Position numbers and translations under genes: made by a program
Assembly: GCF_030652515.1 (NCBI RefSeq)
Contig: NZ_JAUSAR010000196.1
Coordinates: 62,001 to 126,000 of the forward strand
Direction: 5' to 3'
DNA length: 64,000 bases
From: Aquabacterium sp.
GTDB lineage: Bacteria > Pseudomonadota > Gammaproteobacteria > Burkholderiales > Burkholderiaceae_C
Shown: piece by piece, positions 17,006 to 20,187 of the stretch
Layout of the letters: each line of letters starts with the position of its first letter
Numbering within the stretch: position 1 is the first letter of the stretch
Notes under the pieces: generated by a model
The model's database searches: none
The model's input: the letters and a program-made list of their open reading frames with translations, nothing else
Told to the model about the DNA's origin: nothing

Positions 17006-18253
17006 ATGTCCGCCCACATCGTGCTCACGTCGCACCCCGCCCGCCACGGCGGCGGGCCCGGCAGCCCCACCGCCGTCCACTGGGGGGCGCCCACGGCGGC
17101 CGAGCGAGGGCCGCTGGTGGCCAGTGTGGGCAGCCCGGCGCAGCGCAATGTCATCGGCACCCACTCGGGCGCCTATTCGGTTTACCGCGCCCTGGCCGTC
17201 GCTTCGGGGGCCTTGCAGCGCGACCACAAGCCCGATTTCACCAACACGGCGCCGGTTGAAACCATCGGCCCGCACCCCCAGTGGGCAGACCCGCAAAAAA
17301 TCGTGTCGCTGGACCCTTGGGGCCACATGGTCTCGGTGGCCTTTGCCGAGCAGATCGCCGCTGGCATGGATGTGCGGCCCACCATCGCCATCACCAAGGC
17401 CCACATCAACATGCCCGAGCTGGTGGCCTCGATCGCCGCGGGTCGGCTCAAGCCCGATGGCGACATCCTGGCGGCCAATGGCGATGTCAAGGTCACCAAG
17501 GCCGCCATCGACCCGGTCTGGCACCTGCCGGGTTTGGCCGAGCGTTTCGGCATCAAGGAAAGCGCCCTGCGCCGCAACCTGTTCGAGCAAACGGCCGGCA
17601 TGTTCCCCGAGCTGGTCACGCGGCCCGACCTCAAAGTCTTCCTGCCGCCCATTGGTGGCATGACGCTGTACTTCTTCGGCGATGTGGCCAAACTGGGGCA
17701 GGCCTCCACCAAGGTGGCTTGCCGGGTCCACGATGAATGCAATGGCTCGGACGTGTTCGGCTCCGACATCTGCACCTGCCGCCCCTACCTGGCCCACGGC
17801 ATCGAGGTCTGCATCGAGATGGCGCAGCAAGGCGGCGTCGGCCTCGTCATCTACAACCGCAAGGAAGGCCGCGCCCTGGGCGAGGTCACCAAATTCCTGG
17901 TCTACAACGCTCGCAAGCGCCAGGTGGGCGGCGACCGTGCCGAGACCTACTTCGCGCGCACCGAATGCGTGGCCGGCGTGCAAGACATGCGCTTCCAGCA
18001 ATTGATGCCCGATGTGTTCCATTGGCTGGGCATCAAGCGCATCGACCGCTGGGCCTCGATGAGCGACATGAAGCATGGCGCGCTGGTCGAGCAAGGCATC
18101 GAGGTGGTGGAGCGCGTGCCCATCCCTGAAGAGTTGATCCCGGCCGATGCGCAGGTGGAGATGGATGCGAAGAAAGCCGCAGGCTACTTCTCCCACTACA
18201 CGCCGGATGCGACCGAACTGGCCCTGCCCAAGGGGCGCGGGTTGATGGAATGA
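17006..18253 (+). CDS. URC1-type GTP cyclohydrolase II homologue (uracil catabolism)
   Basis: GTP cyclohydrolase II-family protein of 415 residues, about twice the length of RibA, with a roughly 200-residue N-terminal extension. The zinc site HDECNGSDVFGSDICTC (about residues 242-258) has the C-x10-C-x-C spacing of the family, followed by GVGLVIYNRKEGRALG. It is followed by a DUF1688 gene and uracil phosphoribosyltransferase, the set that defines the URC uracil degradation pathway first described in the yeast Lachancea (Saccharomyces) kluyveri. Role in uracil breakdown rather than riboflavin synthesis is therefore inferred from length and neighbours. Its stop overlaps the next start (ATGA). 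A sigma-54-like promoter lies upstream. Confidence 0.88.
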   Translation: MSAHIVLTSHPARHGGGPGSPTAVHWGAPTAAERGPLVASVGSPAQRNVIGTHSGAYSVYRALAVASGALQRDHKPDFTNTAPVETIGPHPQWADPQKIVSLDPWGHMVSVAFAEQIAAGMDVRPTIAITKAHINMPELVASIAAGRLKPDGDILAANGDVKVTKAAIDPVWHLPGLAERFGIKESALRRNLFEQTAGMFPELVTRPDLKVFLPPIGGMTLYFFGDVAKLGQASTKVACRVHDECNGSDVFGSDICTCRPYLAHGIEVCIEMAQQGGVGLVIYNRKEGRALGEVTKFLVYNARKRQVGGDRAETYFARTECVAGVQDMRFQQLMPDVFHWLGIKRIDRWASMSDMKHGALVEQGIEVVERVPIPEELIPADAQVEMDAKKAAGYFSHYTPDATELALPKGRGLME

Positions 18254-19536
18254 CCGTCATGAACATGAACCCACCAGTTCGCACGGCAGGGCAGGGGGGC
18301 ATCCCACCTTTGCTCACGCCTGAATCGTTGTTGACCGCGCAAGCGGTTCGGCGCAGCGCTTCGGCCTTGATGGCAGCGGCCCAGGCCGGGCAGTCTGCTC
18401 ACTTCACCTGGCACCCTGAGCGCGTGGCGGTGGCCGCCGCCTACGTGGCCGGGGTGATCCGCGAGCGTTACCCCGATCTGCAGGTGCCGTACCACAGCCG
18501 TTGGCGCCACTTTGAAGCCGGTGGCCTGGACCGCTGGGCCATGGTCGCCCACCAGCACGGGCTGGACGGCCACACAGCGCGCCTGGAGCGAGCCCGCTCG
18601 AGGGTGGACCTGGTCGTCATCAGCGTTCTGCTGGATGCCGGAGCCGGTGCGGCCTGGAGCTATGCCGATTTGGAAACGGGCCAAACGTTGACCCGGTCCG
18701 AAGGCCTGGGCGTGGCCAGTTTGCGGTGGTGGGCCAAGGGCGCCTTGTCCAGCAACCCGCTGCACCCGACGCGGTCCGATGCGCAAGCCTTGGCCCTGGT
18801 AGACGCGCAGGCAGTGGGGCGGGCTTTGCAAGTGCGCACCGACAATCCCTTGGTCGGCCTGGAGGGGCGGGCCGATCTGCTGCGCCGCCTGTCGCTGGCG
18901 CTGGAGCAGCACCCCGACATCTATGGCCGCCCTGATGCGCCCGGCTTGCTGCGCCCCGGCCACCTGGTCGACACCCTGTTCCGCCAGGCACCCACTGGCA
19001 AGATCAAGGCCTCGGCCGTGCTGGCCGTGCTGCTCAACACCCTGGGCGACATCTGGTCAGGCCGCCATCAGCTGGGCGGTGTCAACCTGGGCGATTGTTG
19101 GCGCCACCCCCAGGCGCCGGATGGCTGGGTGCCTTTCCACAAGCTCAGCCAATGGTTGACTTATTCCTTGCTGGAGCCTCTGGAAGACGCGGGCCTGACC
19201 ATCACCGACCTGGACGAGTTGACCGGCCTGCCCGAGTACCGCAATGGCGGCCTGCTGCTGGACCTGGGCGTTCTGCAAGCCCGCGACCGAGCCTTCCACA
19301 CCCAGCGCTGGACCGTCGATGCCGAGCCCATCGTGGAATGGCGTGCCCTGACCGTGGCCGTGCTCGACCACCTGGCCGAAGCCGTGCGCGGCGAGTTGGG
19401 CCTGAGCATGGAGCAATTCCCGCTGGCCCGCGTGCTGGAAGGCGGCACTTGGGCGGCGGGGCGCAAAATCGCCCAGGCCAAGCGCCCGGGCGGTGTGCCG
19501 CCCGTGCACATCGAAAGCGACGGCACCGTTTTTTAA
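18250..19536 (+). CDS. DUF1688 / URC4 protein (uracil catabolism)
   Basis: Protein of 428 residues belonging by sequence to DUF1688, the family of yeast Urc4. Recognisable segments include VPYHSRWRHFEAGGLDRW, NPLHPTRSDAQALALVDA, RPGHLVDTLF and FHKLSQWLTYSLLEPLEDAG followed by GLTITDLDELTGLPEYRNGG. The biochemical activity is not established as far as I know; genetics in yeast place it in uracil degradation after formation of UMP. It overlaps the preceding gene by 4 nt and is 9 nt from upp, so all three are one transcriptional and translational unit. A start three codons further in (MNMNPP) is also possible. Confidence 0.88.
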   Translation: MTVMNMNPPVRTAGQGGIPPLLTPESLLTAQAVRRSASALMAAAQAGQSAHFTWHPERVAVAAAYVAGVIRERYPDLQVPYHSRWRHFEAGGLDRWAMVAHQHGLDGHTARLERARSRVDLVVISVLLDAGAGAAWSYADLETGQTLTRSEGLGVASLRWWAKGALSSNPLHPTRSDAQALALVDAQAVGRALQVRTDNPLVGLEGRADLLRRLSLALEQHPDIYGRPDAPGLLRPGHLVDTLFRQAPTGKIKASAVLAVLLNTLGDIWSGRHQLGGVNLGDCWRHPQAPDGWVPFHKLSQWLTYSLLEPLEDAGLTITDLDELTGLPEYRNGGLLLDLGVLQARDRAFHTQRWTVDAEPIVEWRALTVAVLDHLAEAVRGELGLSMEQFPLARVLEGGTWAAGRKIAQAKRPGGVPPVHIESDGTVF

Positions 19537-19545
19537 GGACGAGAC

Positions 19546-20187
19546 ATGGCCCACGACTTCCCCAACCTCTTTGTCATCGACCACCCCCTGGTGCAGCACA
19601 AGCTCACCTGGCTGCGCAACAAGGACACCAACACCGAGAGCTTTCGCAGCCTGCTGCGCGAAGTCAGCCAGATGCTGGCCTACGAGGCCACGCGTGATCT
19701 GCCGACCGAACTGCTGTCCACCCCCACGCCCATCACCACCTTCGATTCGCCCGTGATCAGCGGCAAAAAGCTGTGCCTGGTGTCCATCCTGCGCGCCGGC
19801 AACGGCATGGTTGACGGCCTGCTGTCGCTGCTACCGCTGGCGCGCGTGGGCCACATCGGCCTGTACCGCGACCCCGGCACGCTGGAGCCCGTGGAGTACT
19901 ACTTCAAGGTGCCCAGCGACATTGCCGAGCGCCAGGTCATCGTGGTCGATCCCATGCTGGCCACCGGCAATTCTGCTGTCGCGGCCATCGACCGCATCAA
20001 GGAGTGCGGCTGCCCCAGCATCAAGCTGCTGTGCCTGCTGACCGCGCCAGAAGGCGTGGCCAACATGCTCAAACACCACCCGGACGTGCCCATCATCACG
20101 GCCTCGCTGGACAGCCACCTCAACGACCACGGTTACATCGTGCCTGGCCTGGGTGATGCCGGGGATCGGATCTTTGGCACCGTCTGA
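19546..20187 (+). CDS. upp: Uracil phosphoribosyltransferase
   Basis: Converts uracil and PRPP to UMP; 213 residues. The PRPP-binding signature is [18 protein letters not shown] (about residues 128-145) and the uracil-binding C-terminus includes [37 protein letters not shown] is also characteristic. An AAGGACGAG ribosome site precedes the ATG. Elsewhere upp serves salvage. Here, as the third gene after the URC1- and URC4-like genes, it is likely the entry step of uracil breakdown (the role of yeast Urc6), making UMP or feeding a UMP-linked route. Confidence 0.95.

Follow-up and report, generated by a model that had tools for sequence, protein, structure and literature searches.

The window analysed here is a stretch of 64,000 nucleotides (nt) from Aquabacterium sp. 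(contig NZ_JAUSAR010000196.1, positions 62,001 to 126,000; genome of 5.4 Mb in 229 contigs). It carries three adjacent genes of the URC type, a gene set for uracil degradation:

17006-18253, forward strand: urc1, URC1-type (uridine triphosphate, UTP) cyclohydrolase, 415 amino acids, with a GTP_CH_N domain (residues 4-195) and a GCH-II-like domain that contains the Cys triad C245/C256/C258, from the open reading frame list and profile searches

18250-19536, forward strand: urc4, DUF1688 (URC4/urg3 family), 428 amino acids, a predicted Qng1-fold N-glycosidase with proposed catalytic residues K298 and E329

19546-20187, forward strand: upp (urc6-type), uracil phosphoribosyltransferase (UPRT), 213 amino acids

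The first-pass annotation, made from the sequence alone, had described an ATGA overlap between urc1 and urc4 followed by a 9-nt gap before upp. Both are present (18250-18253 and 19537-19545, respectively). The start of urc4 is uncertain, many homologues aligning only from about residue 18-33, and the overlap therefore depends on the ATG chosen. The assignment of the genes to URC1, URC4 and URC6 agreed with the profile families of all three. Profile searches, which the annotation had proposed as a check, placed the second protein in DUF1688 (PF07958, 4.5e-142), the sole Pfam family reported for it at E ≤ 0.001, and gave the first protein a score far under the RibA cut-off. The upp product matched PF14681 (UPRTase, 8.9e-77) and TIGR01091 (267.8 bits; cut-off 208.35), and upp was the only PF14681 match detected in the genome. 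DUF1688 is single-copy in this genome, which is one of 18 that carry the family in a 299-genome sample of the phylum. The nearest DUF1688 loci were those of a Leptothrix metagenome-assembled genome (MAG; 97% identity) and two Aquabacterium MAGs (93% and 75%); thus, the betaproteobacterial origin proposed for this DNA was correct. This gene set for uracil degradation was known already, and the trio is a genuine bacterial copy of the ordinary kind.

A single-sequence search of the Protein Data Bank (PDB) with Urc4 gave one chance-level match (E = 0.94) and no solved relative. We built an AlphaFold2 model of Urc4 from 81 sequences (mean predicted local distance difference test score, pLDDT, 91.1; predicted template modelling score 0.89) and compared it with 350,542 PDB chains by Foldseek. 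Eleven chains matched at E ≤ 0.001 (1.2e-8 to 2.2e-7). All were queuine-salvage proteins of the DUF2419/Qng1 family, Qng1 being the queuosine-5'-monophosphate N-glycosylase; the human structure 7UGK was among them, and the next-best match had an E-value of 1.1. A second model was built from 13 actinobacterial and cyanobacterial sequences, none of them proteobacterial, that form a subset of the 80 loci described below (pLDDT 84.0). It recovered the identical 11 chains and no others at this threshold (2.4e-7 to 1.5e-5; next E = 0.91). A viral structure library gave no Urc4 match at E ≤ 0.001.

The same relationship was seen between profiles. When a DUF1688 profile was run against 177,635 PDB sequences, the top four matches were all DUF2419, with E-values (0.02-0.13) that are weak alone. 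Because Qng1 was found in 0 of 299 genomes of the phylum sample, in a search that gave no control signal, the Qng1 set was drawn from other genomes (1 of 18, 6 of 190 and 2 of 197). The Qng1 alignment (A3) held eight of these nine loci: L104, the weakest match, was omitted, and of L106 and L107 only the matched stretch was aligned. The DUF1688 alignment (A1) combined the window, which is L001, with 14 of the 18 loci; L006, L008 and L012 were omitted because their genus was already represented. Comparison of DUF1688 with the eight Qng1 homologues by hhalign gave probabilities of 96.2-96.4% (E 1.2e-9 to 2.4e-9), with residues 30-411 aligned to 6-314, and 94.3% (E 9.6e-8) when the roles were swapped. 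Of 38 control profiles, 36 from clusters of neighbouring genes and two made by reversal, none exceeded 0.8% with DUF1688 or 1.0% with Qng1. Urc4 itself had no match to PF10343, the Qng1/DUF2419 family, at E ≤ 0.001; we therefore class it as a sister family that shares the fold of Qng1 and probably works like it, not as a Qng1 member. The two are alike in fold and in a near full-length profile match, and the Urc4 counterparts of Qng1 K199 and D231 are invariant. Urc4 differs in belonging to another Pfam family, in being ~100 residues longer, in having Glu for Asp, and in its proposed small substrate, ribosyl-urea.

Qng1 K199 and D231 were located from mutated PDB sequences (K199C at RFYK, D231N at FADYK). 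HMMER and hhalign both aligned K199 with Urc4 K298 (PFHK-LSQW) and D231 with E329 (LPE-YRNGG). All 81 DUF1688 sequences have K298, Q301, E329, Y330 and R365; the residues aligned with them in the Qng1 set are, in that order, Lys (7/8, one gap), Gln (7/8), Asp (8/8), Tyr (5/8) and Arg (8/8). The lysine is thus kept in Urc4, and the aspartate is replaced by the invariant Glu329. In 80 of 80 loci the protein ends at the residue aligned to F428, with the tail SDGTVF (77), ADGTVF (2) or SDGTLF (1). The Qng1 fold and the aligned residues led us to predict that Urc4 is an N-glycosidase.

Urc1 matched PF12471 (GTP_CH_N, 1.7e-83) over residues 4-195, in agreement with the N-terminal extension of ~200 residues noted in the first-pass annotation, and matched PF00925 (GTP_cyclohydro2) more weakly (2.9e-13). 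Its score with NF005536 was 767.5 bits. The best solved relatives were 7EJ3/7EEV (617.6 bits over residues 3-413), which are deposited as 'GTP cyclohydrolase II' and which we take to be the entries of the UTP cyclohydrolase paper; the guanosine triphosphate (GTP) cyclohydrolase II 2BZ0 reached 44 bits only, far under these two. Compared with 7EEV/7EJ3, Urc1 showed no evident difference. In a 2021 paper, the pyrimidine ring is reportedly opened by a zinc UTP cyclohydrolase of the Urc1 family, and a theoretical study dates from 2022. The putative zinc-binding triad C245/C256/C258, which had been pointed out earlier, was kept in 76 of 76 homologues within the 80 DUF1688 loci, as was C321. RibA was rejected as an identity for Urc1, as the earlier annotation had advised: the TIGR00505 score was 50.5 bits (cut-off 205.85), and outside this locus the genome has a further two GTP_cyclohydro2 genes, which score 238.7 and 116 bits. 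The name 'GTP cyclohydrolase II' is given to urc1 in NF005536 and in several plasmid records; on urc1 this label looks like a naming error.

Locus counts refer to the 80 best-scoring of at least 580 DUF1688 relatives, so that linkage counts lean towards close relatives. By tblastn, urc1 was found in 76 of the 80 loci (same strand and ≤300 nt upstream in 70), and upp also in 76 (≤300 nt downstream in 66). The order urc1-urc4-upp recurs in loci of Pseudomonadota, Actinomycetota and Cyanobacteriota and is therefore not due to chance; the gene cluster is widespread and was known before. Loci that depart from this order include contig ends (L085, L081) and loci with long flanks, and three (L086, L089, L093) had no upp match by tblastn despite such flanks. 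A cytosine deaminase was present in 25 of 80 loci, including a weak match in L077 (29% identity, opposite strand) and one on the opposite strand in L074. Neighbouring genes were clustered by single linkage and one representative of each cluster was annotated. In 17 of the 80 loci, all between L022 and L042 (e.g. L035:11984-12700), a cluster of RutR-like TetR regulators neighbours the trio, its representative scoring 198.5 bits, under the RutR cut-off of 368. This suggests that a pathway other than Rut is controlled by uracil through a regulator resembling RutR. The Rut pathway likewise uses uracil as nitrogen source; its monooxygenase, RutA, had no match in this genome at E ≤ 0.001. Parts of a Bmp-type ATP-binding cassette importer were also found near the trio (substrate-binding protein in 14 loci, ATPase in 15, permeases in 18 and 9). 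DUF1688 matched 13 plasmid records, of which nine name the gene 'URC4/urg3 family protein' and four list no gene there.

Two urea-using enzymes are encoded in the genome, a urease (PF00449, 2.2e-51) and a urea carboxylase of full length (TIGR02712, 1885 bits; cut-off 1303.85). A strong urease match (PF00449 E < 1e-40, counted by hand; this keeps 101 of 117 matched genomes and drops weak ones such as G256) was present in 16 of 18 DUF1688 genomes vs 85 of 281 others in the phylum sample (Fisher p 1e-6, ignoring relatedness and genome size). Six of the 18 DUF1688-positive genomes belong to one genus (g82), and the co-occurrence is suggestive only. In comparison with the URC system of Lachancea kluyveri (URC1, URC4 and URC6), all three bacterial genes match by family and the bacterial genome holds urea-using enzymes; the bacterial genes differ in being clustered, near a cytosine deaminase gene and, in this genome, a chemoreceptor gene.

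We propose the following route, in which each catalytic step is predicted. Uracil, taken from outside or made from cytosine by CodA, would be loaded on phosphoribosyl pyrophosphate (PRPP) by UPRT and then raised to UTP; both steps are established chemistry for this family. Urc1, as a zinc UTP cyclohydrolase, would open the pyrimidine ring and, if it resembles GTP cyclohydrolase II, would also free pyrophosphate to give N-(5-phosphoribosyl)urea and a three-carbon aldehyde acid. Urc4 would then hydrolyse the N-glycosidic ribosyl-urea bond to urea and ribose-5-phosphate, with E329 taking the part of D231 in Qng1 and K298 that of K199. A phosphate on the Urc4 substrate is predicted because Qng1 entries hold queuosine-5'-monophosphate and because GTP cyclohydrolase II releases pyrophosphate. 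The ribose-5-phosphate would return to PRPP, making ribose a recycled carrier, and the urea would go to the urease or the urea carboxylase, whose genes lie outside the operon. According to an excerpt of PMC7530994, URC1 and URC6 convert uracil to 3-hydroxypropionate and ribosylurea, and URC4 converts ribosylurea to urea; the earlier statement that Urc4 has no assigned activity was therefore too strong, and what we found without an assignment were its fold and its mechanism. Urea is named as the pathway product in excerpts of two papers, this one among them.

We give a probability of about 0.75 to the reading that the trio is a URC-type operon for scavenging uracil nitrogen, in which ribose is recycled and Urc4 is a Qng1-fold N-glycosidase. 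With somewhat less assurance, we think it likely that DUF1688 and DUF2419 form one N-glycosidase superfamily, that Urc4 is its catabolic branch, splitting 5-phosphoribosylurea by a Glu/Lys pair, and that URC is a ribose-carrier cycle in which PRPP enters, ribose-5-phosphate leaves and uracil nitrogen departs as urea. Several observations weigh against the operon reading. With moderate TM-scores (first model 0.55-0.60 by query and 0.71-0.79 by target; second model 0.49-0.52 and 0.59-0.65) and an identity of 15-18%, the match does not reveal the substrate. Each HMMER stretch matching Qng1 is insignificant singly (stretch E-values ≥ 10). Urc4 has Glu instead of Asp at the key D231 position; among Qng1 proteins, L107 has a gap in the K199 column, and in L104, outside the alignment, the lysine is apparently shifted by one, judged by eye. 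Three loci (L044, L082, L089) had no urc1 match by tblastn despite 10 kb of upstream sequence, and two of the 18 DUF1688 genomes (G119, G256) have neither a strong urease nor a urea carboxylase over the cut-off.

Urc4 might have the Qng1 fold and split the same bond but act on unphosphorylated ribosylurea (or a higher phosphate), releasing free ribose. We regard this as possible though rather unlikely. Ribosylurea is the URC4 substrate named in the excerpt of PMC7530994, and nothing in this analysis fixes the phosphate-binding residues. Against this stand the Qng1 relatives that, by their entry titles, were solved with queuosine-5'-monophosphate, others having been solved with queuosine; ribosylurea in vivo could also arise by the action of phosphatases on the phosphorylated form. 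A paper title calls queuosine-5'-monophosphate the biological substrate of Qng1.

Far less probable is that Urc4 is a urea-amide hydrolase, which would turn ribosylurea into ribosylamine, CO2 and ammonia with no urea. Usable nitrogen would be produced that way too, Pfam assigns no activity to DUF1688, NCBIfam gave no match, and the two genomes that lack both urea enzymes by the criteria used would fit; the fold and residues of Urc4 match an N-glycosidase, urea is the product in the two papers mentioned, and strong urease is enriched as given above. We find it hardly credible that the first gene is the GTP cyclohydrolase II of riboflavin synthesis and the cluster non-catabolic. The name in NF005536 and the molecule name of the PDB entries speak for that view, and the low TIGR00505 score, the two other GTP_cyclohydro2 genes and the frequent linkage of urc1 to DUF1688 and upp speak against it.

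Downstream of the trio lie the following features.

20188-22146, forward strand: segment of ~1,960 base pairs (bp) between upp and codA, read as an insertion, absent from L019 and L021

20285-22078, forward strand: gene for a methyl-accepting chemotaxis protein (4HB_MCP_1, HAMP, MCPsignal; profile searches) within this segment

22112-22143, forward strand: 14-bp hairpin 5' of codA, a possible intrinsic terminator by folding energy, with the tail CTTTTG

22146-23417, forward strand: codA, cytosine deaminase, which makes uracil from cytosine; 423 amino acids, GTG start, NF005748 808.6 bits (cut-off 438)

The stop codon of upp overlaps the start codon of codA in L019 (TGATG), and in L021 codA starts 16 nt past the upp stop; L020 has no codA in the ~125 bases available after upp. 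In the window, the chemoreceptor gene and the strong hairpin separate upp from a codA that starts with GTG. Comparison with the two close relatives makes an insertion in this lineage the likeliest account of the ~1,960-bp segment, and in these relatives codA seems to belong to the ancestral unit. The first-pass description of the operon as complete held for the three URC genes; the trio itself contains no regulator or transporter, codA appears to have belonged to it, and the urea enzymes are encoded elsewhere. The hairpin region folds at -31.8 kcal/mol (z -4.95) and was not among the sites of the terminator consensus scan, which found eight terminator-like sites, near the shuffled level (mean 5.1, sd 2.4). 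A sigma-70 promoter scan found 0 sites. The signalling half of the chemoreceptor is 68-81% identical to many of 27 other matched places in the genome; its sensor half had no match elsewhere in the genome (of the 1,960 bases searched, none before base 779 was matched). A tRNA-Leu (caa) gene lies just downstream of codA, at 23439-23523.

Upstream of the trio, genes for a DUF4394 protein (14259-15191) and a rhomboid protease (16191-16844) lie two genes apart. The protease matched rhombosortase at 41.8 bits, short of the cut-off of 84, and the DUF4394 protein has a PEP-CTERM-like tail.

The URC operon was already known; the link between Urc4 and Qng1, which would give Urc4 a fold and a mechanism, is new here. 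We found no link between Urc4/DUF1688 and Qng1/DUF2419 in the literature searched, a search that left out the Qng1 structure, UTP cyclohydrolase and original URC papers and the database clans. The analysis also argues for renaming the urc1 genes now labelled GTP cyclohydrolase II. If the link is right, one URC step that, in the literature read, has so far been known from genetics would gain a mechanism, two specified residues and a prediction that its substrate is phosphorylated. The link would also connect a nitrogen-scavenging enzyme of bacteria and fungi to the human enzyme of queuine salvage.

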